Position numbers and translations under genes: made by a program. Positions 9,387-25,308 of a stretch of 35,491 nt of DNA are shown piece by piece (positions within the stretch are counted from its first letter, which is position 1; every line of letters begins with the position of its first letter). The notes under the pieces were generated by a model, which did not search any database, was not told where the DNA came from, and saw nothing but the letters and a program-made list of their open reading frames with translations. The DNA comes from Streptomyces atroolivaceus (GTDB lineage Bacteria; Actinomycetota; Actinomycetes; Streptomycetales; Streptomycetaceae): the NCBI RefSeq assembly GCF_000717025.1, contig NZ_JNXG01000029.1, forward strand, positions 1 to 35,491. Reading direction: 5' to 3'.

Positions 9387-9699
9387 TTCGCTCCCCCCAG
9401 GAGTAAAGGATTTTCGCCCCAGACCATATAGCCGCCCTCTGCCGGGTCAACAGCCGAAGGAAATACGCACCTAAGCAACTAAAGCAGTGATCATTAATGC
9501 AATTAATCAATAGGGGCACTTGCTGCCAGAAAAGCCCCAAACCGGGTCGCCGCCAACACGGTTCAACCGCAACGAACTTGCACCCTATGCCCCTTCCTGT
9601 GCCACTTTGCTCGTGCGCGCAAGAGGGGGGGCAGTGACTTTTTCGTGAAGGCTCTGTTAGTTTCCGACGGTCATTCACGGGGTGGGCAAGGGGTGGGTC
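9387..9699. promoter_or_regulatory. divergent promoter region between the FG-GAP and RHS genes
   Basis: This 313-nt spacer is clearly more AT-rich than its surroundings. It contains a near-palindrome at 9488-9509 in which two ATTAAT boxes are separated by GCA and flanked by TGAT and ATCA; this is a plausible operator shared by the two promoters. The RHS start at 9700 is preceded by AAGGGG (9688-9693). Exact -10/-35 boxes cannot be assigned by eye. Confidence 0.55.
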
Positions 9700-12600
9700 A
9701 TGCGTTGGTTCGGCAGGTCATTGATGGCTGCGCCATTGTCCGCTGCACTCTTGTTGGGGCTACTGCCCGCAGTCGCAAACGCATCAGACCCTGACGCGAT
9801 CCCAACGACCTCCCGCGCAGCAATAAAGCAACCCAAAGCCGTGCCGGTAGAACCCGTCAAATTCGAGTCCAACAAGCGCAAGAACGACGCCGAGCGCTCC
9901 CCATGGCGCTCACCCGACGTCGTCTGGCCCACCGCGGCCAGCGCCGACGTCGTGCTGGATCCCGCCAAGGCGAAAGCTGCGCCCGCAGGCCGGCTCCCCG
10001 TCTCCCTCGCGCCTGCCAAGAGAACAGAACGTCGTGCCAAGACCAGCGCACCCTCCAAACTCAGGGTGGCAGTGGCAAGCCGGTCAAAGGCAGACCAGGC
10101 GGGTGTCGACGGCCTGCTGCTCTCCGTGACACCTGATAAGACGACGGCACAGAAGCAGTCCGTCAAGGTCACGGTCGACTACGACACCTTCAAAGACGCC
10201 TACGGCGGAGACTGGGCAGCCCGACTGCGGCTGGTCCAGCTGCCCAACTGCTCGCTGACAACACCGCAAAAAGACGAGTGCCGCAACGCTCAGCCGCTGA
10301 AATCCTCGAACGACACGGAACGTAAGACACTCAGCGCAACAGCCACAGCGACGGGCGCCACCCCCGTGGTCCTGGCCGCCGTCGCCGGCGCCGAAGGGAG
10401 CTCCGGCAGCTTCAAGGCGACCTCCCTGCAGCCGTCGGGCGCCTGGAACGCCGGCAACTCGACCGGATCCTTCAACTGGTCCACGAACATCGGAATGCCC
10501 GCGGTGCCGGGCGACCTTGTGCCCAAGGTCGAGCTGAGCTACTCCTCCCAGAGCGTCGACGGGCGGACAGCAGCCTCGAACAACCAAGCGGGGTGGATCG
10601 GCGACGGCTGGTCGATGGAGCCCGGATACATCGAACGGCGCTACAAGTCGTGCGACGACGACAAGGACGAGGGCAGCGCTACCAAGGTCGGCGACCAGTG
10701 CTGGTACAACAACAACGCTGTCCTGTCCCTCGGCGGCAAGACCACCGAACTCATCTACGACGCTGCCAAAGGCTGGCACCCTGAGCAGGACAATGGCGAA
10801 AAGGTCGAAAAGCTCACCGGTGCAGACAACGGCGACAAGGGAACAGTCGGCGTCGACGGCGTAGGCGAACACTGGAAGATCACGGCCACCGACGGAACCC
10901 AGTACTTCTTCGGGCTCAACAAGCTCAAGGGCTGGAGCGACCACGGAACCGAAGCAGACGACCCCCTCACCAACTCTACCCTCACCATGCCGGTCTTCGG
11001 CAACCAAACAGGGGAACCCTGCTACAACGCGTCCTTCGCCTCCGCCTGGTGCCAGCAAGCCTGGCGCTGGCAGCTCGACTACGTAGTCGACCCCCACGGC
11101 AACGCGATGGCGTACTACTGGAAAACCGAGAACAACAACTACGGCCGCAACGTCTCCACCACCACCGGCACCGCAACCGCCACCCCCTACAAGCGCGCCG
11201 GCTACCTCGACCACATCGAGTACGGGCTGCGAGACGAAAGTCTCTACACCGCCAAGGCCATGGCTCGCGTCGACTTCGGGGTGGCCGAGCGCTGCCTGAC
11301 CAATTGCGGGACGTTCAACGCAGCCAACGCAGCCAACTGGCCTGATGTCCCCTTCGACCTGTACTGCAAGGAAGACGCGACCGACTGCAAGGACCAGTAC
11401 TCGCCAAGCTTCTGGTCCCGCAAGAGGCTCACCAGCATCAGCACCAGCCTCCTCACCGGCGGCTCCTACGCACCGGTCGACACCTGGACGCTCAAGCAGG
11501 GCTTCCCCGCATCAGGCGACGGCATCTCCACCCCGATGTGGCTCGAGTCCATCCAACACACCGGAAAAGCAGGAGGCAGCACCGCCCTGCCCCCGATCAC
11601 CTTCGCCGGCGTCCAGATGGCAAACCGCGTGGACAAGACCGGCGACGGCCTCGCACCCTTCATCCGCCTGCGCATGTACCAGGTCACCAACGAGAGCGGC
11701 GGCACAGTCGGAGCCGAGTACTCCCAGCCCGGCTGCACCGCGAGCACCCTGCCTCCCTCGGACGAGACCAACAAAACACGCTGCTACCCGGTCAAGTGGG
11801 CCTTCGAAGGGGACACCGCGAAGGAGGACTGGTTCAACTCCTACGTGGTGACCAAGGTTCTCGAGGGTGACAACGTCACCGAAACGCCCGACACCACCAC
11901 CCAGTACACCTACCTCGACGGTGCAGCCTGGACGAAGAGCACCGACGAATTCACCAAGGAAAAGGACCGAACCTTCTCCGTCGCGCGAGGCTACAGCCGC
12001 GTGCAGACACGCAAGGGCGGAACCGAAGAGGGCCCGACCCTGACCGAAACGCGGTACTTCCGCGGAGTCGACGGGGCAGCCGTCAAAGACTCCGCCGGTG
12101 TAGCGGTCACCGACCGGGAACAGTTCGCCGGCAGAACCCGCGAAACCATCACCTACAACGGCGACGACACCAGCAAACTCGTCTCAGCCATCTCCTACAC
12201 ACCCTGGCGCTCCGCAGTGACGGCCAGCCGGCCCCGCACAGGCCTGCCCGACCTGCAGGCATACCTCAGCGGTACCGAGAAGGACGAGACACGCACCAAG
12301 ACCGCTACAGGGGAATACAAGACCTCAATCACGCGGACCTTCAACAAGTACGGGCAAGTCACCACGGAGTCAGAAACGGGTGACACGGCCAAGACGAACG
12401 ACGAGAAGTGCTCCACCACGACGTACGCGGCCAACACCGCGACCAATCTGCTCAGCCTCGTCGCGCAGCAGAGGACGGTTGCCACCCTGTGCGGGGCCGC
12501 TGACCCGGGCGCCGACGGCGTGATCAGTGATCTGCGGACCTACTACGACGGGGCCACGTCGCTGACCGCCGCACCGACCAAGGGGAACACCACCAAGGTC

Positions 12601-12831
12601 GAGACCATCAACGGGGCGGGCACCGGCTACGAAACCGTGGGATCGACGCCCGTAGCCGACTTCGACGCCTACGGCCGGGCACTCTCCGTCACCGACGTAT
12701 ACGGCAAGACGACGAAAACGAGTTACACCCCCCCACAGGCCAGGCACCGACCGAAAAGCGGGTCGTCAACCCGCTCGGCCACACCATCACCACTGAGCTC
12801 GATCCTCTGCGCGGACAGCCGCTCAAGGTGA
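9700..12831 (+). CDS. RHS-repeat polymorphic toxin, N-terminal part (frame broken at 12728)
   Basis: This is the first part of a giant secreted RHS protein. The ATG at 9700 is preferred over GTG at 9682 because AAGGGG lies 6 nt upstream and the signal peptide (MRWFGRSLMAAPLSAALLLG ... ANA) starts there. Next come a low-complexity region (about residues 30-150), an SpvB/TcdB-like beta-domain (WSTNIGMPAVPGDLVPKVEL, NNQAGWIGDGWSMEPGYIERR) and FG-like strands up to the start of the RHS/YD repeats. The frame leaves homology after SYTPP at a seven-C run and ends with a 34-residue nonsense tail. Adding one base (or slipping back one) continues it as TGQAPTEKRVVNPLGHT into the 12828-16343 frame, for a total of about 2214 aa. 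RHS repeats form a shell that encloses the C-terminal toxin. Confidence 0.88.
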   Translation: MRWFGRSLMAAPLSAALLLGLLPAVANASDPDAIPTTSRAAIKQPKAVPVEPVKFESNKRKNDAERSPWRSPDVVWPTAASADVVLDPAKAKAAPAGRLPVSLAPAKRTERRAKTSAPSKLRVAVASRSKADQAGVDGLLLSVTPDKTTAQKQSVKVTVDYDTFKDAYGGDWAARLRLVQLPNCSLTTPQKDECRNAQPLKSSNDTERKTLSATATATGATPVVLAAVAGAEGSSGSFKATSLQPSGAWNAGNSTGSFNWSTNIGMPAVPGDLVPKVELSYSSQSVDGRTAASNNQAGWIGDGWSMEPGYIERRYKSCDDDKDEGSATKVGDQCWYNNNAVLSLGGKTTELIYDAAKGWHPEQDNGEKVEKLTGADNGDKGTVGVDGVGEHWKITATDGTQYFFGLNKLKGWSDHGTEADDPLTNSTLTMPVFGNQTGEPCYNASFASAWCQQAWRWQLDYVVDPHGNAMAYYWKTENNNYGRNVSTTTGTATATPYKRAGYLDHIEYGLRDESLYTAKAMARVDFGVAERCLTNCGTFNAANAANWPDVPFDLYCKEDATDCKDQYSPSFWSRKRLTSISTSLLTGGSYAPVDTWTLKQGFPASGDGISTPMWLESIQHTGKAGGSTALPPITFAGVQMANRVDKTGDGLAPFIRLRMYQVTNESGGTVGAEYSQPGCTASTLPPSDETNKTRCYPVKWAFEGDTAKEDWFNSYVVTKVLEGDNVTETPDTTTQYTYLDGAAWTKSTDEFTKEKDRTFSVARGYSRVQTRKGGTEEGPTLTETRYFRGVDGAAVKDSAGVAVTDREQFAGRTRETITYNGDDTSKLVSAISYTPWRSAVTASRPRTGLPDLQAYLSGTEKDETRTKTATGEYKTSITRTFNKYGQVTTESETGDTAKTNDEKCSTTTYAANTATNLLSLVAQQRTVATLCGAADPGADGVISDLRTYYDGATSLTAAPTKGNTTKVETINGAGTGYETVGSTPVADFDAYGRALSVTDVYGKTTKTSYTPPQARHRPKSGSSTRSATPSPLSSILCADSRSR
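12728..12734 (+). other. seven-C tract causing -1 frameshift in the RHS gene
   Basis: The tract C7, read as A-CC-CCC-CC, separates two well-conserved coding frames. Its form C-CCC-CCC allows a slip of both tRNAs by one base, or one missing C could be a sequencing error or a genuine phase-variable tract. The downstream frame is clearly coding from about 12735 onwards, well before its first start codon at 12828. Confidence 0.8.
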
Positions 12832-15800
12832 CTGACGCCAATGCCCGTGTCACCTCTGCGGCCTACGACCCCCTGGGCCGGGTGACCAAGGTCTGGCAGC
12901 CCACCCGCTCCGCAGTGACCTACCCAGCCAGCCCCAGCCAGACCTTCGCCTACCAGATCCGTAACGACGGCCCCGTCCTCGTCACCGCCACCGCACTCAA
13001 CCACAATGGCGCCTACCAGCCTTCGTACACCTTCTACGACGGGCTCATGCGGGAGATCGAAACCCAAGCACCGTCCCCGGACGACGCCGGGCGCCTGATC
13101 ACCGAGACCTTCTACGACAGCCGCGGACAGGCCTGGCGCAACTCGGGCGTCTACTACGCCACCGGACCCGCTGAGCCGGTGCCCGTCACAGGCCAGGAAC
13201 TCAACTACCCCTCCGCCACCGAAACCCTCTTCGACGGAGCAGGCCGCGTCACCGCCGTAATCGCGAAGAAGTTCGGTGACGAAACGAAGCGCACCACCAC
13301 CGCATACACCGGAGACACCACCATCGTCGTGCCCCCGGCCGGAGGAACCGCCACCACGACGGTAGCCGACGCCCTGGGCCGGACCACGGAACTGAAGCAG
13401 TACACCAACGCTGACCGCACCGCATCCCAGTCGACGAAGTACACCTACAACAAGCTAGGCCGCCTGGAACAAGTCACCGACCCCTCAGGCGCCAAATGGG
13501 TCTACGGCTATGACGCAGCGGGCCGCCAGGACTACATGGACGACCCCGACAAGGGCGAGACCACGACCGCCTACGACAAGGGCGGCCGCGCCACAGACGT
13601 CACCGACGGCAAGAAGATCACGCTGCACACCGACTACGACGAGCTGGGACGCCCCATAGCCCTGATGCAGGGCACCACCAAGCGCGCCTCCTGGGAGTAC
13701 GACAAGGCCACCAAGGGCCTCGGCCAGCTCTACAAGACCACCCGCTACAACGGGGCCGACGCCTACACCAGCACCATCATCAACTACAACGCCACCTACG
13801 CACCTGTAGGCACCACCGTCACGATCCCGGCAGCCGAAGGCGCCTTGGCAGGAACCTACGCCTGGACCGACGTCTACAACCCCCACACCGGGCAGCTCAT
13901 GGAGACGGCACAACCAGCCGCCGGCGGCCTCCCGGAAGAGGACGTCATCAACGCCTACGCCTACGGATCCAGCCTGCCCATGTCAGTCTCCGCCGGAGAC
14001 GACACACTCCTGGCAACAGTCAAGTACGACCACTACGGACGCCCCGCGGAGCAGCAGTTCGGAGCATTCGCCGAACACCTGTGGAAGACAAACGAATACG
14101 ACCAGCACACCGGCGCGCTGACACGCTCCTTCACCGACCGCGAGGTCACCCCCCAGCGCATCGACGACGTCCGCTACACCTACGACCCCGCCGGCAACAT
14201 CAAACGCATCCAGACCACAACCGGCCAGGACGCCACCGCCCTCAACGACACCCAGTGCTTCGCACTCGACACCCTGCGCCGCATCACCGAAGCCTGGACC
14301 GCAACCGACAACTGTGCCGCGCCCGCAACCGCCACCACGGTCGGAGGCCCAGACCCGTACTGGACCTCGTACTCCTACGACGCCGTAGGCAACCGAAAGA
14401 CCGAAACCCAGCACACCGCCGCCGCAGGACCCGCAACCGACACCGTCCGCACCTACGCCGCGCCGGAAACCGGAACGCACAACCTGCCCGGCATCACGCA
14501 GAGCGGATCCGCTGCCCGCACCGAGACCTACACCTACGACGCCGCGGGCAACACCGAAACCCGGAAGATCGGCAACGACGCCACCCAGAACCTGAAGTGG
14601 GACGCTGAGGGCCACCTCGCATCCGTCACCGAGGTAACCGACACCACCAGCTACCTCTACGACACAACAGGACAGCGCATCATTCGCCGAGACTCCACCG
14701 GAACCACGCTCTACCTGCCCAAGGGCAACGAACTCCACCTCGACAAGGCCGGCAAGGTCACCGGCACCCGCTACTACACCGCCGCCGATGAAACAGCAGC
14801 CATACGCACCGGCGGAAAGATCACCTTCCTGATCAGCGACCACAACGGAACCAGCACCACCCAGGTCACCGCCGACAGCAACCAGACAGTCACCCGGCGC
14901 CAAAGCACCATCTTCGGAGCGCCCCGTGGCGGCGAGCCGACGACCTGGGCCGGCGACAAGGGCTTCGTGGGCGGAACCCGCGACACCGATACCGGCCTCA
15001 CGCACCTGGGCGCCCGCGAGTACGACCCTGCCACCGGCCGCTTCATCAGCGTCGACCCGGTCATGGACATAGCCGACGCCCAGCAGATGCACGGCTACAC
15101 CTACTCCAACAACAACCCGGTCACCTACTCCGACCCCAGCGGACTGTGCATGGACCCCGGAAACGGGCGCTGCGAGCCGGACGACGGAGGTAAGAGCGGC
15201 GGAAAGCCCGACCCCGGGTTCCCGATCAACACAAACCCAGATGACGGAATCGACAATTCGCACCTGCCGACCACCAACCTTGGTGACGGAGAGGCACATC
15301 TTCCGCCGGCGAAAGCAATTCACCTGTACGTCGGTAAGAAGAGAGATCTGACGAACCTCCTCGGAATGGTGACGAGGTGGCAGTACTACCAGCCCGAAAT
15401 GAGCATTGAGCTCAATACGGAACTATTCCTGCGTTCGCAATGCGGCAAAAGCTTCGGTCCTGGATGCGATGAGTTCAGAAAGTTCTATGACGGCTGGAAG
15501 CATGTAGACAAAATTCCCGAACCTGAGACATGCCCCATCTGCGGGAACGTAGGTTTCCAAGCCATCGTGGCCAAAATCCTCGGCCGCGGCGGCTGCGGGA
15601 AATGCTTCCTCGCAGGAACCGAAGTCCTGATGGCCGACGGCACAACAAAGAACATCGAGGATGTGAAACCGGGAGACGAGGTCCGAGCCGCGGACCCCGA
15701 GACAGGGAAAACGGGAGCTCGCCGGGTCGCGGCCCTCATCGTCACGGAAGACGACAAGCACTTCAATGAGCTCTCGATAACTTCGACAGCCGGCGCCAGC

Positions 15801-16343
15801 ATGCTCACTGCTACGCACGAGCACCCTTTCTGGTCCCCGTCTGCAAACCGCTGGATCGAAGCGGACCAACTCAAGCCCGGCATGACACTGCTCACCGACT
15901 CAGGTGGGACGGCGACAGTCACAGGGAACCGGAGTTACAACCAGCAGGCGCGCACGTACAATCTGACCGTCGACGACATGCACACGTACTATGTGCTGGC
16001 GGGGCAGACTCCGGTCCTCGTTCACAACAGCGACTGTTGGACTGTCAAGGCAAGGATGCGTGCAGCCGGTCCCGGGGAGAAATTCGGTCTGCCAAACCAA
16101 GGTCGCATTCGATATGTGCCCCCGAAGGGCTATAATCCCGCGAACCCCTTGCCGCGAGGTCGTAGCGGTGGATATATTGATCGATTCGGTAACGAGTGGA
16201 CAGTGGGGCCCTCGCGTACCGAGGGGCATCCTTTTGAGTGGGATGTTCAGTTGTCGCGTCAAGGGCGGGAGAAGATCGGTTGGCTCTCTCGCGATAATCG
16301 CCACGTCAATGTGGACCCGCATGGGGAGGTGACTCATAGGTGA
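12828..16343 (+). CDS. RHS core, HINT pretoxin and C-terminal toxin domain (continuation)
   Basis: This is the second frame of the RHS toxin, open from about 12735; GTG at 12828 is only its first possible start. It has many YD repeats (YDPLGRVTKVW, YDAAGRQDYMDDPDKGETT, YDAVGNRKTE), then the RHS-associated core (GLTHLGAREYDPATGRFISVDPV and YSNNNPVTYSDPSGL, about 15000-15145). A Cys-containing linker of about 150 residues follows (C-P-I-C and C-G-K-C pairs), then a HINT domain and a 104-residue toxin domain. The core motif marks the autoproteolysis site that frees the C-terminal cargo in RHS proteins. The gene ends with a GTGA overlap with the immunity gene. The C-terminal 450 nt are lower in GC and use different codons, typical of exchangeable toxin tips. 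Confidence 0.9.
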   Translation: MTDANARVTSAAYDPLGRVTKVWQPTRSAVTYPASPSQTFAYQIRNDGPVLVTATALNHNGAYQPSYTFYDGLMREIETQAPSPDDAGRLITETFYDSRGQAWRNSGVYYATGPAEPVPVTGQELNYPSATETLFDGAGRVTAVIAKKFGDETKRTTTAYTGDTTIVVPPAGGTATTTVADALGRTTELKQYTNADRTASQSTKYTYNKLGRLEQVTDPSGAKWVYGYDAAGRQDYMDDPDKGETTTAYDKGGRATDVTDGKKITLHTDYDELGRPIALMQGTTKRASWEYDKATKGLGQLYKTTRYNGADAYTSTIINYNATYAPVGTTVTIPAAEGALAGTYAWTDVYNPHTGQLMETAQPAAGGLPEEDVINAYAYGSSLPMSVSAGDDTLLATVKYDHYGRPAEQQFGAFAEHLWKTNEYDQHTGALTRSFTDREVTPQRIDDVRYTYDPAGNIKRIQTTTGQDATALNDTQCFALDTLRRITEAWTATDNCAAPATATTVGGPDPYWTSYSYDAVGNRKTETQHTAAAGPATDTVRTYAAPETGTHNLPGITQSGSAARTETYTYDAAGNTETRKIGNDATQNLKWDAEGHLASVTEVTDTTSYLYDTTGQRIIRRDSTGTTLYLPKGNELHLDKAGKVTGTRYYTAADETAAIRTGGKITFLISDHNGTSTTQVTADSNQTVTRRQSTIFGAPRGGEPTTWAGDKGFVGGTRDTDTGLTHLGAREYDPATGRFISVDPVMDIADAQQMHGYTYSNNNPVTYSDPSGLCMDPGNGRCEPDDGGKSGGKPDPGFPINTNPDDGIDNSHLPTTNLGDGEAHLPPAKAIHLYVGKKRDLTNLLGMVTRWQYYQPEMSIELNTELFLRSQCGKSFGPGCDEFRKFYDGWKHVDKIPEPETCPICGNVGFQAIVAKILGRGGCGKCFLAGTEVLMADGTTKNIEDVKPGDEVRAADPETGKTGARRVAALIVTEDDKHFNELSITSTAGASMLTATHEHPFWSPSANRWIEADQLKPGMTLLTDSGGTATVTGNRSYNQQARTYNLTVDDMHTYYVLAGQTPVLVHNSDCWTVKARMRAAGPGEKFGLPNQGRIRYVPPKGYNPANPLPRGRSGGYIDRFGNEWTVGPSRTEGHPFEWDVQLSRQGREKIGWLSRDNRHVNVDPHGEVTHR
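15603..16028 (+). other. HINT (Hedgehog/intein-like) pretoxin domain
   Basis: The domain starts at the nucleophilic Cys in CFLAGTEVLMADGTTKNIED, continues with VKPGDEVRAADPETG and the block-B-like TATHEHPFW, and ends with TPVLVHN, the splicing-type His-Asn. HINT domains next to RHS cores are known to cleave off the C-terminal toxin. All key residues (Cys, the T-x-x-H of TATHEH, terminal HN) are present, so it is probably active. Confidence 0.9.
16029..16340 (+). other. C-terminal toxin domain, polymorphic toxin type 17-like
   Basis: These are the last 104 residues, after the HINT domain. Conserved-looking blocks are GRIRYVPPKGYNPANPLPRG, GGYIDRFGNEWTVGPSR and FEWDVQLSRQGREKIGWLSR, ending HVNVDPHGEVTHR. 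I recognise this pattern as the family annotated as polymorphic toxin type 17 (Ntox17), a predicted nuclease-type toxin. The biochemical activity is not established by anything visible here. His and Arg residues near the end could be catalytic. Confidence 0.7.
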
Positions 16344-19324: not shown

Positions 19325-21412
19325 CTATTCCAGGAAGGCGGCGCTTCCCCAGTCGAAGATGCTGGGCTGCCTGAATCCGTCCAGGGGCTCGGCTACCAAG
19401 GCCCCGATGCCGCGGTCGCCGAGTTGGCGGGCCACAGCGAACCAGTCCTGCTGGAGATCACGAAGCGCGTTGGCGAACGCATCGGCGAACGAACCTCCGT
19501 CGGCGAGTTCGATCGCGAGGAGGGCACCGAACACCGTGGCGGCGTATCCGTCGACCGGCCATAGATGCCCAATGACTGCTTGGCCGGGGCCCACTATGGA
19601 ACGGGCGATGCCTCGGTCGTCGTAGGGGCCTTGAGTGTCGGCGGCCGCGCTGTCGCAGGTGTTGAACACCACGAGGCGCCGGGTCGAGGCCGGTAGCAGG
19701 GGCGCGCGGGCGAGGTCGTCGAGAAAGATATGCTCGGTGTCGCTGAGCACGACGGCGGCGCGGTCAGGCGCGTAGAGGGGGTGTGATCCGTGCGCGACGA
19801 CCCAGATAACGTCGTAGTCGTCACGCTGGAACTCGGCGAGGAACCGGTCGCGGGTGAGGTCGGCGCCCGTCATCACGTCGACGCTCATACCCGCGTAGGA
19901 GAACACCGTCTCCACGACCGCGGCCTCCACATGAGCAGACGGAGCGTCGCCGCACCACAGCTGCACGCGCTCCACAGGCCGGTCCGGCAGCGGCGCGCGC
20001 AGACTGACTGCCAGAGGAAGAACCGGACCTCGAGCACGGGCCAGCAGAGCCTGCACCGGGGTCAAATGCGGCAGCAGCGAGATGAAGGCGGCGGCGCCTT
20101 CTCTGGAGGAGAATTCAGCCAGGTCCGCCACGTCGAGATGGGCGTGCAGAGCGTCGCTCAACTCCTCAGCGTACGTAGCGTCTTTGCGCCCGGTGGCAGG
20201 AGTTGTCAGTGCGGTGTCGTCGAGGCCGCGAGTGACCAGGGCGTGCCCCAAGGCCTTGTTGAATGCTGCGGTGAGGCGGCTGGCGGAGTCCGGGAGATCC
20301 GGTGACGGAGCCGACCCTGGCCGGAACCAGACCTTGCTGCCGGCGTTCGCCAGCGTTAGACACCGGTCCGTGCGAGCTTGACCCGCCGGCACACCCCGCC
20401 ATGCGCTCAGCAACTGGGTGAGGTGCGTGGCGTCACCCGACTGCAGGAGTCGGTACTGGAGCTGGCCCAGCATGGAGAAGACGACGCCTCGATCGCGTGA
20501 CACCTGCGCCGGATCGTCCTCGCTCTCCACCATGGTGATGACTGCCTGCACCTGTTGGAACAGCTCAGGCAGGAGGGCCTCCCCTTCGGGCTCACCGAGG
20601 AACCGCTGTACCTCAAAGGCCAGGGCGGTGTAGGGATTCATGGGGACGTGCTGCAGCGCCCACCTCGCGATCGCGTCGGGGTCGCGATGGGACACCGGGG
20701 GCCGCGCCCCGGCCAAGTACACAGCGATGGCTGCCGCGAGGGGATGAGCAGGGTTGGCCAAGAGAAGAAGCTCCACCGCGTGACCCAAGAGGCTTGCTGG
20801 CCGGCGCAGGCCTTGCGAGACCAGGTACTGCGCCAGGTAGAGGGCAGCTTCCGCCACGTGCTGGTTTCCGGTTGGCAAGCTTCGCATGCAGAGACGGAAA
20901 GCCGGCTCACGGAAACCCTTAGCCAGGTGTTCGGCCGTGTTGTGGTGATGGGCGAGGTAGAACACCATCGGCGCCAGCAAGAGGACGCATCGCTCCACGG
21001 ACGTGCCCCAGCGCGGGTCCTTCAGGGCACGGTCGACCGGGCCCATGTCTATGTCGACCGATCCGTCCTTGTCGTCTGATGTGGCAACCGCTCGGTGCAG
21101 CCACTCCCACGTGGCCAGGGGGTGCGCGCACTCGAATGCCAGGCGCGCGGGAGCCCAGCAGATGCCGAGAGCCAGGACCACACGTGCTCCCTCGGGTACA
21201 TGGGGAGCGACGAGTGGCACACCTCGAAGGTCACTCAGAAGCCGCCTGGTGAAGTGCTCCCAAGCGTGAGGGGTGTCCTGGAGCGCATCCTGCCGGAGCC
21301 GGATGTGGGCCAGCAGTAGCGCCACACTGCTCGGGTCTGTGGGGTCCACGTCGAAGCCGGACGGCACGTCGAGGTGTCCGGCAACGGAGGGAAACAACGC
21401 ACTGGGCCGCAC
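19325..21412 (-). CDS. CHAT-domain (caspase-like) peptidase with helical N-terminus
   Basis: This protein is about 695 aa from GTG at 21412; the frame is open to 21547, but the extra residues are Arg/Pro-rich and look non-coding. The C-terminal 200 residues are a CHAT protease domain: YDVIWVVAHGSHPLYAPD supplies the catalytic His (about residue 541) and RRLVVFNTCDSAAADTQGPY the catalytic Cys (about 586), 45 residues apart as usual, followed by ARSIVGPGQAVIGHLWPVDG and AATVFGALLAIELADGGSFA. The first 480 residues are alpha-helical with TPR/repeat-like character (AEAALYLAQYLVSQGL; LLANPAHPLAAAIAVYLAG). In bacteria such TPR-CHAT proteins are proteolytic effectors of immunity or cell-death systems. 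It stands alone, in the same direction as the caspase-like operon at 22.3-24.9 kb but separated from it by the relaxase fragment. It looks intact. Confidence 0.88.
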   Translation of the reverse strand: MRPSALFPSVAGHLDVPSGFDVDPTDPSSVALLLAHIRLRQDALQDTPHAWEHFTRRLLSDLRGVPLVAPHVPEGARVVLALGICWAPARLAFECAHPLATWEWLHRAVATSDDKDGSVDIDMGPVDRALKDPRWGTSVERCVLLLAPMVFYLAHHHNTAEHLAKGFREPAFRLCMRSLPTGNQHVAEAALYLAQYLVSQGLRRPASLLGHAVELLLLANPAHPLAAAIAVYLAGARPPVSHRDPDAIARWALQHVPMNPYTALAFEVQRFLGEPEGEALLPELFQQVQAVITMVESEDDPAQVSRDRGVVFSMLGQLQYRLLQSGDATHLTQLLSAWRGVPAGQARTDRCLTLANAGSKVWFRPGSAPSPDLPDSASRLTAAFNKALGHALVTRGLDDTALTTPATGRKDATYAEELSDALHAHLDVADLAEFSSREGAAAFISLLPHLTPVQALLARARGPVLPLAVSLRAPLPDRPVERVQLWCGDAPSAHVEAAVVETVFSYAGMSVDVMTGADLTRDRFLAEFQRDDYDVIWVVAHGSHPLYAPDRAAVVLSDTEHIFLDDLARAPLLPASTRRLVVFNTCDSAAADTQGPYDDRGIARSIVGPGQAVIGHLWPVDGYAATVFGALLAIELADGGSFADAFANALRDLQQDWFAVARQLGDRGIGALVAEPLDGFRQPSIFDWGSAAFLE

Positions 21413-21708
21413 GCGGGTCAGATTACCCCGGCGCGGCGCGCTCGGCGCAGAGCGTGAGGCGGGCAACCGAAGGCGGTGCCTGCGCCGTTGCGGGCTGCCT
21501 TCGGCAGCCGGAAGTGGGCGTGGGCGCACTCCTGCTCGGGGTGCCATTGATGAAAGAGTCGCCGGTCTGGCAGCGCAGGGCGCCAGACGCGGTCCACGAG
21601 AAGCCCACAGCAGCCCGTCGGACCCTGGGACCTGCGGAGTCCGGCCTGTGCGGTCGGCGACGCTGATCGGTCTCTTCTTGCAGCTCAGAGCCGTGTGGCG
21701 TGGTCTGT

Positions 21709-22325: not shown

Positions 22326-24062
22326 CTACGGGGTGAGCGGCCGTGGCCCGGGCTTCGGCAGACGCTTGTCGGGCCGGGCCCGCTCGCAGTGCGCGCACTG
22401 GCAATCCACCGGCCCCGCGCTGCCATGGGCAGCATCACGTCGTGAGTTCACTGAGGTGCTCATTTCCGGCCAGTTGTCGCAGGTCAGCACCACCCACCAA
22501 CTCGGTTCACGGGCACGGAGGTTTGTGCACCACAGGTGCACCAGCGCATATCCGGCCCCTGCCTTTGCCGGGTGCCGGACTGCGGAGGCAGCGGTGGCGG
22601 CGCGGAGCCCGAACCACTGGGCAGGTTCCCACCGCATGTCCGCCTTCCCGAACTGCTGCAGGGCATCCAAGGACGCAGAAGCCTGCCTGCAGGAGCTCAG
22701 GCTGTTCTGGCCGGCCACGGGGCTGGGAAGGTGATCGACGCGTGCGTCCTCCATCAAGGAGGCGATGTCATGGAACAAGAGCCACGCCAGCGGTGTGCGA
22801 GCGGCCGGCCCTCGTTGATCACTGGCCGCGCACAGACCGGGACCCGGCCAGCGCTCTGGAGCACCGGCGTATCGCCCCCGAGCGACGTCCGCGGGATCCA
22901 TGGCTGGCCGCTTCACAGCGCGGGCGAGCAGGAGCAGAAGCTCACTGATCTTGTCCGTAGCGAGCGGCTGGACGTCCGCCATCCGCAGTGACGTGGCCGC
23001 CTTGGTCACCACAACCAGGGGCAGCCTTGGCCCGAATTTGCTTCCGAAGGGTGTCCAGTATCGGGCCGCGTGCTGCGAGCTGGCTACCCACGCAGAAATG
23101 GACAGGCGTTCATAGGCCTGTTCCCGGAGCGGCCCAAGCTCATCCGGGGCGGACGGGGGCCGTGAGCCGAATGTTCTTGGAAGAGCTTCGCGGCACGCGT
23201 CTACCAGGAAGACGACGTGGTTGCCCCTACGGTAGGCCCGCTGAAGTGGGCGAGCAGGCAGCCAGCCGGCAGAACGCGCTGACCGAGCCCGTCCCGCACC
23301 CGCAGGGTCCAGCAGGAAACGGAGAGCCTCGCCCGCAGCCATGGGCCGGCTTGCTCCGGTCAACCGCACATGCCGCGTTGCCGTCTCCTGGCCAGGCTGA
23401 GGCTGCTCGCCGTGGCCTGGAAAGAGGAGGAAGGTATGCATCTCGTCGTAGAACTCGGTGTCCTCCACCCGCACGGGCCTGCCGGGCGCGGGTGCCTCGC
23501 CATCCCGACCTGCCGCGGCTCCTGTGTCCCCTGCCGCACCGGCACTGGCGCCGGCCCAGGACGCCTCATCGCTTTCGGGTAGAGAAGCGATGAGGTGACG
23601 TGCGTCGCCGTGTCCCCAGTCCGCAGCGATGCGCAGCCATCGCCGTACCTCCGTGTCCCGGCGAGCCGGGGCGGTGCGCAGGAGGTTGCTGAGGGCGCTG
23701 ACGTCCGCCTGCGCCGTGCTCCGCGCGGCCGCCAGGGCGCTGCGGAAGGCCGCCCCGGGGTGCTCGGCGTCCGTGGCGACAGCGAACCACGCGCGCGCGT
23801 TGTCGAGTTCGTCGCGGCGCAGGGCCTTGCTCCCGATCACGTACGCGCTGTTGGCATCGGCCCTCCGCTCCGCCTCCGCCTTGCTGAGTTCCTCATCCCT
23901 CTCGTACTCGCCCTCGCCCCAGCTGCCGTCCGGCCGGTCCCAGAAGTCCTCCTCACCGCCCGAGAGCCGGGAGAGCAACTGCTCGTAGGCCGACGTGATC
24001 CGCATGCCGTGATCCTCATCCTCTGCCGGGTGTGCCGGTGCCTCGAATTCGTAGTCGCGCAT
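22326..24062 (-). CDS. predicted caspase-like protein in a sigma-factor operon
   Basis: This 578-aa protein is not recognised as a whole. Residues 60-165 are helical and resemble Sel1/TPR units (ALRRDELDNARAWFAVATDA, VRRWLRIAADWGHGDARHLI). After an Ala/Gly linker, residues 196-295 contain two motifs that look like a caspase-type dyad: HTFLLFPGHGEQ (His217) and GNHVVFLVDACRE (Cys290, compare D-A-C in metacaspases). The 73-residue spacing is longer than the usual 40-50, so an insertion or a degenerate fold is possible. Residues 320-560 have hydrophobic helices (ISELLLLLARAVKR, LAWLLFHDIASLM) and a C-Q-C-x2-C cluster near the end. The ATG starts 3 nt after the sigma gene stop, so translation is probably coupled. 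The frame is clearly coding throughout. Confidence 0.72.
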   Translation of the reverse strand: MRDYEFEAPAHPAEDEDHGMRITSAYEQLLSRLSGGEEDFWDRPDGSWGEGEYERDEELSKAEAERRADANSAYVIGSKALRRDELDNARAWFAVATDAEHPGAAFRSALAAARSTAQADVSALSNLLRTAPARRDTEVRRWLRIAADWGHGDARHLIASLPESDEASWAGASAGAAGDTGAAAGRDGEAPAPGRPVRVEDTEFYDEMHTFLLFPGHGEQPQPGQETATRHVRLTGASRPMAAGEALRFLLDPAGAGRARSARSAGWLPARPLQRAYRRGNHVVFLVDACREALPRTFGSRPPSAPDELGPLREQAYERLSISAWVASSQHAARYWTPFGSKFGPRLPLVVVTKAATSLRMADVQPLATDKISELLLLLARAVKRPAMDPADVARGRYAGAPERWPGPGLCAASDQRGPAARTPLAWLLFHDIASLMEDARVDHLPSPVAGQNSLSSCRQASASLDALQQFGKADMRWEPAQWFGLRAATAASAVRHPAKAGAGYALVHLWCTNLRAREPSWWVVLTCDNWPEMSTSVNSRRDAAHGSAGPVDCQCAHCERARPDKRLPKPGPRPLTP

Positions 24063-24065
24063 CCC

Positions 24066-24667
24066 CTACTCACCGTCCTTCGCCAGGCGCCTGCGACCGG
24101 CGCTCTGCACGTACGCCGCCCTGATGAACGGGCTGACCTCCGGTGCGGCGCGTACTTTGGCGCGGCCGCGGTTGTACTGTGTGTCGACCTGCTGCCGGGA
24201 GATCCCGAGCGACTCGGCCACCTCCTTAGCAGGCTCTCCCCGTGCCCGGCGACTGGTCACCTCGCGTTGCTGCGGAGAGGCGATCCGGCTCAGGCCCTGG
24301 GAGACCCTGGCCTCCAGGTCGTGGTCCTGCTCGTCCGGCTCCGCTCCACCTGCACGTCGGCCAGGCCGGACAGGTCGACGTTGTCCATGAGCACGGTCTC
24401 GCCGTCCCTCTTCAGCTTCCCCAACGCCAGTCGTCTGGCGGTCGTCTTGATGTACGCGACCGGCTTCTTCGACGGATCCAGAAGGCCGCTCCTCAGCACC
24501 ATGAGGACGGCTTCGTTGGCCACATCCGCCCGCTCGCCCGGGTCGAGCTGCGGGAAACAGCCGAGCGAAGCGACGACCTTCCTGCACAGCTCGTCGTACC
24601 CCTCACGGCCCAGCTCCTCGAGATAGGCGCGGCCCGCGTCGGACTGGCCGCCGCCGGGGCTCACCAC
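24066..24667 (-). pseudogene. sigma-70 family (ECF-like) sigma factor with frameshift
   Basis: Two frames together make about 200 aa. The first, from GTG at 24667, holds region 2: YDELCRKVVASLGCFPQLDP, ADVANEAVLMVLRSGLLDPS and VAYIKTTARRLALGKLKRDG. Near 24344, GTGGAGCGG stands where GTGGAGGCGG would be expected, so one G is missing. The other frame continues AEPDEQDHDLEARVSQGLSR, then region 4: SPQQREVTSRRARGEPAKEV and AESLGISRQQVDTQYNRGRA. With one base added, the length is an exact codon multiple. It would direct RNA polymerase to its own promoters, possibly this operon. The gene overlaps the 24661-24951 gene by 7 nt. Either the mutation is real and the operon is decayed, or it is a single-base sequencing error. 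Confidence 0.8.
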
Positions 24668-24951
24668 AGCCGGTACTCCCCGTGCTCCGTACCCGGTGCC
24701 GACCAGCAGGTGAGCACTGCCCCGTCGGGCGCCTCGTAGCGCAGCACCGTACCGGGCGGCATGCCGCGCATCAGCTCCAGGAATGCCGAGCCGGCCGCTG
24801 CGGTCGGCACGGCGACGGAGCCGGCCGGGGGACGGGCGCCGTGGTGCCGGGAGTGCCTGCGGGATGTGCTGCTCGCAGGACGGTCGAGGAGGGCGAGCAT
24901 GTGGGGGAGCATCTGGAGGACGAGCGGGAGGAGCTCGGTGAACTCGGGCAT
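24661..24951 (-). CDS. 96-aa hypothetical protein, first gene of the sigma/caspase-like operon
   Basis: The start ATG at 24951 is preceded by GAGGAAG (11 nt away). The protein begins with an amphipathic or hydrophobic helix (TELLPLVLQMLPHMLALL), followed by a basic, His-rich low-complexity linker and a compact C-terminal part with ELMRGMPPGTVLRYEAPDGA followed by VLTCWS. The helix could be a membrane-associating or dimerisation segment. Its end overlaps the sigma gene start, implying coupled expression and perhaps a regulatory role (anti-sigma-like or sensor; inference only). No family is recognised. Confidence 0.6.
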   Translation of the reverse strand: MPEFTELLPLVLQMLPHMLALLDRPASSTSRRHSRHHGARPPAGSVAVPTAAAGSAFLELMRGMPPGTVLRYEAPDGAVLTCWSAPGTEHGEYRLW

Positions 24952-25308
24952 CGAGTAGGGGACTTCCTCGGTTCGGGGCCGGCGACTTACTTCACCGGCT
25001 CATAGGCCCGCCCGCCTCCGTTTCTCAACAGCTGCCTCACCTCGTTTTTCTTCCCTCGTGCGGTGAAACCCTGTGAACTGGGCTTTTACCTCTCGCCGCG
25101 TCGCAGATTCTCTGTGACGCCCGGCGCTCAGCAGCGCCCCGCGCGCCCCCGGCGCGATGCGGGAGCGCACGGCCAGGAATATGCGCCCCCGCACGGGACG
25201 GGGTGGGAACGCTGCCGTGGACGTGCCCGGCCCTGCCGCGCCAGTTCCTGTCCGGACGCCGTTCCCCGCCGGAACGGACCCACGGCGCGGAGCTGGTGCC
25301 GGTGTGGT
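24952..25308. other. intergenic region, promoter of the sigma operon
   Basis: This 357-nt stretch has no convincing gene. Besides the hairpin at 25259-25277 it holds a second perfect small hairpin at 25123-25138 (GGCGCT / AGCGCC, loop CAGC). The last 60 nt before 24951 should contain the operon promoter, which I cannot resolve. Confidence 0.45.
25259..25277 (-). terminator. hairpin after the 25309-26232 gene
   Basis: A perfect 7-bp stem (CCGTTCC / GGAACGG) with a 5-nt loop starts 31 nt beyond the minus-strand stop at 25309. Confidence 0.5.

Follow-up and report, generated by a model that had tools for sequence, protein, structure and literature searches.

A possibly decaying copy of a putative mobile sigma factor cassette with a Sel1-like module in Streptomyces atroolivaceus

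We analyzed a stretch of 35,491 nucleotides from Streptomyces atroolivaceus (contig NZ_JNXG01000029.1 of assembly GCF_000717025.1, hereafter the window), belonging to an 8.2-Mb genome in a draft assembly of 105 contigs, with respect to a group of genes on its minus strand encoding a protein of 96 amino acids, a sigma factor and a protein of 578 amino acids. As outlined in Table 1, a promoter-like element precedes the small gene, whose stop overlaps the sigma start by 7 nt, and the sigma gene is separated from the 578-residue gene by 3 nt. The tightly coupled operon of three frames described in a first-pass annotation, made from the sequence alone, was thereby borne out in its coordinates, overlap and gap, but the sigma gene occupies two frames instead of one. 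Neither Rfam families nor tRNAs were found in the window.

Table 1 Features of the sigma factor locus in the window (nt, nucleotides; HMM, hidden Markov model; AF2, AlphaFold2).
Feature	Position	Strand	Basis or remark
Promoter-like element TGTTGAGAA-N16-CTATGAG	24999..25030	−	0 mismatches to pattern; ends 47 nt before the 96-residue gene
Small gene, 96 residues	24661..24951	−	N-terminal hydrophobic segment, C-terminal PPGTVLRYEAPDGxxLTxW; stop overlaps sigma start
Sigma factor, first part (region 2), 125-residue frame	24290..24667	−	held-out sigma HMM, E 6.2e-14
Sigma factor, second part (region 4), different frame	24066..24587	−	held-out sigma HMM, E 9.1e-13
Module protein, 578 residues	22326..24062	−	open reading frame and relatives
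Sel1/TPR-like helices, residues 61-170 of the 578-residue protein	23553..23882	−	AF2 and PDB Sel1 profile match
Last module helix, residues 205-213 (within VEDTEFYDEMHTFL)	23424..23450	−	shortly before PGHGE; AF2 model, sequence common to relatives with other rears
Variable rear, residues 214-578	22329..23423	−	His217 codon 23412-23414, Cys290 codon 23193-23195

Both parts of the sigma factor were recognized by a held-out HMM, built from the sigma genes of other loci, and the Pfam profiles gave E 0.035 for PF04542 on the first part (under the family cut-off) and E 3e-5 for PF08281 on the second part (24.0 bits vs a cut-off of 25.7). An intact relative on a plasmid of Streptomyces sp. Alt3 (locus L010), 94% identical to the window over 2775 aligned bases, scores 45.5 bits with TIGR02937, the profile of extracytoplasmic function (ECF) sigma-70 factors, above its cut-off of 42.9, while the sigma factor of locus L013 scores 32.3 bits and stays under it. 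Near 24.34 kb the sigma DNA of the window is 1 base shorter than that of L010. Since the same truncated 125-residue frame (P0152) is recorded in four contigs, the longest of 8.05 Mb, the window's assembly probably did not introduce the break by mistake, and a sequencing error in that assembly appears unlikely. The sigma gene of locus L081 is likewise split into two frames (held-out HMM E 2.5e-31 and 4.7e-27).

Searching with the whole 578-residue protein yielded 29 relatives, 20 of them aligned over 63-100% of its length and nine over 21-49%, namely its front part. Among the 20 full-length relatives 71 invariant columns lie in residues 1-213 and only four in residues 214-578. In the two mixed alignments, of 20 rows each, every row shows the front motifs DxWDRP, HPGAxFR and GHxDA. 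The conserved module comprises the first 213 residues, and the rear behind it varies between loci. The helices of TPR or Sel1 type that had been proposed ahead of the His motif are in line with a match of the module profile to Sel1-repeat proteins of the PDB (E 4.9e-10) and with an AF2 prediction based on 111 of the 136 proteins found, which is helical over residues 61-170 with a predicted local distance difference test score (pLDDT) above 90 in 8 of 11 ten-residue blocks; foreign rears among these sequences may have lowered the quality of the model for the window's own rear. A first run on the 20 full-length relatives was uninformative, with pLDDT 30 throughout, the Sel1 part included. When the front part of an IclR-type member served as query, 110 proteins were obtained, of which 103 carry IclR_C, a proportion favoured by the type of the query. 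Other rears occur in single members each, with NACHT, VMAP-C or weak helicase-like matches, or with an HSP90-like match under the family cut-off. Inside the module, between HPGAAFR and WGHGDA, stretches that we take to be P-loop-like (GxGKT and variants) stand at the same place in P0022-P0026, L018:6980-7564 and L020:6671-7120, otherwise different proteins.

The rear of the window protein contains the motifs PGHGEQ (His217) and VFLVDACRE (Cys290), both reported correctly in the first-pass annotation, which took them for a caspase-like dyad in hydrophobic context and the protein for a suicide effector or an enzyme cleaving the sigma factor. Both residues are kept together in 16 of the 20 full-length relatives, and the rear reading frame stays open in about 20 relatives, which counts for a rear function. 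Sigma-caspase neighbourhoods elsewhere (passages of PMC8195603) and the occurrence of ECF54 near CHAT and protease genes (passages of PMC8999054) also speak for a caspase. Taken singly, His217 is kept in 18/20 and Cys290 in 17/20, but 110 and 152 of the 578 columns, respectively, are better conserved, and in the mixed alignment A2 the 14 relatives with other rears lack the motifs. The hydrophobic residues leading up to His217 form the end of the predicted module helix 205-213 and not a strand (mean pLDDT 95 for residues 201-210 and 72 for 211-220), and the sequence of this helix, after which HTFLLF-PGHGE comes, is common to IclR, NACHT and VMAP-C relatives. Only about 46 residues, helix 205-213 included and a low-confidence linker between, separate the last Sel1-like helix from His217 in the AF2 model, and the N-terminal half of a caspase fold, which needs more room, therefore does not fit. 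A loose GHG...AC pattern occurs in 3 of 1902 open frames, the 578-residue frame included, and is thus rare, not decisive.

Profile and fold searches pointed in the same direction. No caspase or CHAT profile was listed for any of the 20 full-length relatives at a limit of E 10, although the filters of HMMER remove the majority of matches weaker than about 0.1, and the profile of the 20 relatives matched no PDB chain at E ≤ 10. Comparison of the predicted structure with the PDB by Foldseek gave nothing at E ≤ 0.001, and no caspase was seen among the best 50 of 173 PDB matches, nor among the best 50 of VIA-align, which mainly span residues 60-215, the part that the fold searches mainly covered. 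In the rear 333 of the 365 residues lie in segments below pLDDT 50, which shows nothing either way. The ratio of nonsynonymous to synonymous substitution rates (dN/dS) between window and L010, a single sequence pair with few differences and a 98-nt deletion in the third gene of L010, was 0.43 for residues 1-213 (19 differences), 0.45 for the small gene, 1.13 for the second part of the sigma factor (11 differences) and 0.90 for residues 214-578 (52 differences, distributed 17/17/18 over the codon positions), with 0.61 on 66 codons of residues 214-313. Along the third gene the third-position G+C content lies at 0.85-0.94 in codons 1-144 and at 0.62-0.83 thereafter. With the helix before His217, the missing profile match, the near-neutral rear and more than 100 better-kept columns we rejected the caspase assignment; a caspase-like protease acting as suicide effector or cleaving the sigma factor appears highly improbable, and the protease-like motifs are probably a coincidence.

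Searches by tblastn recovered relatives of the 96-residue protein at 8 of 27 other loci. When frames ending in a Trp codon and a stop were sought where the sigma gene begins, a small frame overlapping the sigma start was found at 23 of 26 loci, and the linkage with the small protein is conserved, as had been proposed; the terminal Trp follows from the construction of this search, except where plasmid records annotate the gene. The hydrophobic helix ascribed to the protein corresponds to an N-terminal segment of moderate hydrophobicity, the hydrophobic maximum lying in the N-terminal part and being mostly moderate in 19 of the 23 candidates, and window-type loci share a C-terminal motif like PPGxxxxYEAPDGxxLxVW. 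The alignment of the small proteins (A5) was compiled without L017, L086, L089 and L093, whose small gene is doubtful but which was kept in the small-protein tree. An EACC1 domain was considered and rejected for the small protein, no PF19953 being listed for the window protein or two relatives; hhalign against EACC1 gave a probability of 22% and E 0.00096 over 26 columns of the hydrophobic segment.

The order of sigma and module gene is conserved. By the held-out HMMs the module gene is directly preceded by a sigma gene at 25 of 28 closely read loci, a partly redundant set (L017 and L089 probably represent one record, to which L018 is nearly identical; window and L010 are near-identical), and the linkage with a sigma factor, for which the first-pass annotation had suggested a neighbourhood survey, clearly exceeds chance. 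Six window-type pairs of sigma and module proteins on equal-sized contigs (17127, 52350, 63573, 307511, 317960 and 8046083) fit this linkage, as a comparison in which no DNA was read. Module genes were found in 13 of 295 Streptomyces genomes (E ≤ 5e-31), in 20 plasmid records, all from Streptomyces, and at five loci of named genomes, one of them Actinacidiphila. The underlying search used the module alignment A3, which matched 145 of the 295 genomes at E ≤ 0.001; only matches at E ≤ 5e-31 were accepted and weak Sel1/TPR matches dropped. A search with A2, which A3 replaced, had returned for the most part IclR proteins of the usual kind (234 of 238 genomes). The gene group lies about 4 kb from the plasmid end in S. 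venezuelae and 2 kb from it in S. globosus. In genome G253 it stands at both chromosome ends, 13 kb away from them, and in, e.g., G284 it is internal. On two linear plasmids (L013:1-4578 and L014:187-5623) the group adjoins a helicase gene, and everything lies no more than about 7 kb from the nearby plasmid end; the L014 plasmid belongs to S. venezuelae NRRL B-65442 and has unbroken frames. At L010:9640-11112 and L012:5884-7437 a second, inverted operon of the same logic stands nearby, in which a small protein and another sigma factor are accompanied by a product that is Sel1/TPR-like by eye.

Upstream of the small gene we describe a new promoter-like element, TGTTRAGAA-N16-CTATGAG, which has its only match in the window at up to 3 mismatches (0.05 expected) and a single match at up to 2 mismatches in the whole window genome. 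It occurs in 5 of 21 upstream stretches (window, L010, L013, L014 and L094) and in none of 300 shuffle sets, the stretches of window and L010 being near-identical. A second pattern, GGAGAA-N15-18-CGT[CA], is present in 7 of the 21 stretches against at most 2 in shuffles, and in 9 of 2578 tiles from these loci, a count that includes the sites of the operons themselves. Both patterns were written after viewing the 21 stretches, and the genome searches are the fairer test. At up to 1 mismatch, the 295 genomes of the genus contained six matches of the window-type element compared to two for a reversed control. Five of the six precede the small gene or a remnant of it: three belong to known operons (the window with its broken sigma gene and G253 twice), one in G209 stands before a broken small gene with no sigma gene, and the one in G038 is considered below. 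The sixth, in G013, abuts an insertion sequence and is perhaps a remnant of the gene group; there (L131, G013:C1:77500-84500) the element stands directly before the apparent insertion sequence, 79 kb from the chromosome end. The window-type element is clearly beyond chance. The element type follows the sigma clade, the sigma genes of L010, L094, L013 and L014 forming one clade, all with the TGTTRAGAA-type element, in which L010 stands for the broken sigma gene of the window. Because of this agreement autoregulation by the sigma factor is suggested, and the look of the element suggests a private, autoregulated promoter.

An ordinary sigma factor with a regulator, controlling many genes of plasmids or chromosome arms via promoters weaker than the strict element, would be a different reading of the same site. 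ECF sigma factors usually have several targets, which we count in favour of such a regulator, as we do the IclR rears. At up to 2 mismatches, however, the window-type element was found once in the window genome, once in each of three plasmids and twice in G253, in both terminal copies, so that apart from the latter no second site occurred in 5 of 5 genomes or records; the GGAGAA-type element was not searched genome-wide. We regard a many-target regulator as unlikely.

Taken together, the explanation to which we give somewhat better than even chances is that a mobile regulatory cassette of three genes, which occurs on linear plasmids and chromosomes of Streptomyces, is present in the window as a copy in decay. 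The cassette would combine an ECF-type sigma factor with a small protein that has a hydrophobic segment and with a Sel1-like module bearing an exchangeable rear. The sigma factor would transcribe its own operon, resulting in positive feedback, and the Sel1 module would be its partner, binding it and either keeping it off or delivering it to the polymerase. We infer this partnership because the module is the constant part beside the constant gene and the trees of both agree: the tree distances of 19 loci (trees without the window, L081, L017 and L089) correlate with r 0.75 for sigma and module and r 0.50 for sigma and small protein. The input signal might come from the variable rear (IclR ligand domain, NACHT, HSP90-like and others) or from the small protein. 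Since the sigma frame is broken and the rear drifts, the copy in the window is probably inactive and no longer switches.

Several observations weigh against this explanation. Sigma factor and rear (r 0.64) as well as module and rear (r 0.69) are correlated too, all five pairs exceeded 999 permutations, and the tree correlation may reflect joint inheritance only. The module matches without a sigma gene at L016, L095 and L096, and in G038 the element precedes a small gene and a partial sigma gene (E 4e-30, model positions 14-163 of 223) with no module. Neither strict element is present in 9 of the 21 upstream stretches, and a looser scan of L012, L015, L020 and L087 found nothing. Furthermore, weaker or different target promoters would be missed by the searches, and a restriction to the own operon holds for the strict window-type element alone.

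Downstream of the 578-residue gene, at a distance of about 0.8 kb, lies an open reading frame with a CHAT domain (19325-21547, minus strand; PF12770, E 3.7e-16), which the first-pass annotation had listed as an intact TPR-CHAT gene 1 kb away; the CHAT domain is present, but no TPR family was listed for this frame. Residues 124-740 of its product match BovA of PADLOC (E 2.6e-89), and it is possible that this frame represents a defence gene of its own. Together with the NACHT and VMAP-C fusions, the HSP90-like region (under the family cut-off), the fast evolution of the rears and the many copies on accessory replicons, this neighbour argues for a role in conflict or defence, in which the sigma factor would amplify the third protein, whose variable rear (NACHT, VMAP-C, HSP90-like or helicase-like) would act as effector or as sensor of invaders with the Sel1 module as an adaptor only. 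However, IclR_C, which prevails among the module proteins of the IclR query, is a regulator domain, PADLOC gave no match at E ≤ 0.1 for the 578-residue or the 96-residue protein, and tblastn (E 1e-3) did not recover the CHAT gene from the available stretches of the other 27 loci. We consider a defence function improbable. Elsewhere in the window, two large plus-strand frames at 9682-16343, meeting at about 12.83 kb, presumably encode RHS/YD-repeat proteins.

By analogy, the putative cassette appears to resemble the EACC2-caspase and the ECF42 and ECF54 systems in its logic. According to the passages on ECF42 in PMC8999054, the sigma factor carries a TPR extension whose repeats are thought to mediate protein interaction; a small two-region sigma factor is combined with TPR-type helices in both cases, but in ECF42 the repeats reside within the sigma factor, whereas here they belong to a separate downstream protein with exchangeable rears. 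For ECF54, passages of the same source propose control without a classical anti-sigma factor and mention CHAT, subtilase and carboxypeptidase genes in the context. A CHAT gene near the sigma gene is shared with the window, a comparison by gene context, but the tblastn search of the other 27 loci did not find this neighbour there. The EACC2-caspase neighbourhoods include, in passages of PMC8195603, an ECF sigma factor and the TPR protein DUF1822, and likewise unite a sigma factor and a TPR-type protein with a protein whose front is constant and whose rear varies; the constant part there consists of EACC2 and caspase, here of a Sel1-like module without caspase profile. Sel1-repeat proteins are similar in sequence and in the predicted helices of residues 61-170, but the module is short and has the motifs DxWDRP, HPGAxFR and GHxDA of its own. 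A description of the cassette was not found in the literature searched (subscription papers outside scope), nor in the examined passages of PMC13118837 and PMC6662830.

A more general proposal, which we put forward with considerable reserve and judge rather doubtful, is that the Sel1 module serves as a general adaptor between a sigma factor that would transcribe essentially only its own operon and sensors or effectors that can be swapped (IclR, NACHT, VMAP-C, HSP90-like), the whole forming a mobile, self-contained switch. If this were true, the plug-in sigma switches of Streptomyces would form a family, a single conserved adaptor connecting a sigma factor that has a private promoter with many input domains, and the cassette would serve linear replicons as a bistable element for memory or alarm. 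A role would then be available for the 136 proteins found, mostly named hypothetical or IclR C-terminal, and the cassette offers a directly testable case of a sigma factor with its own operon as strict target.

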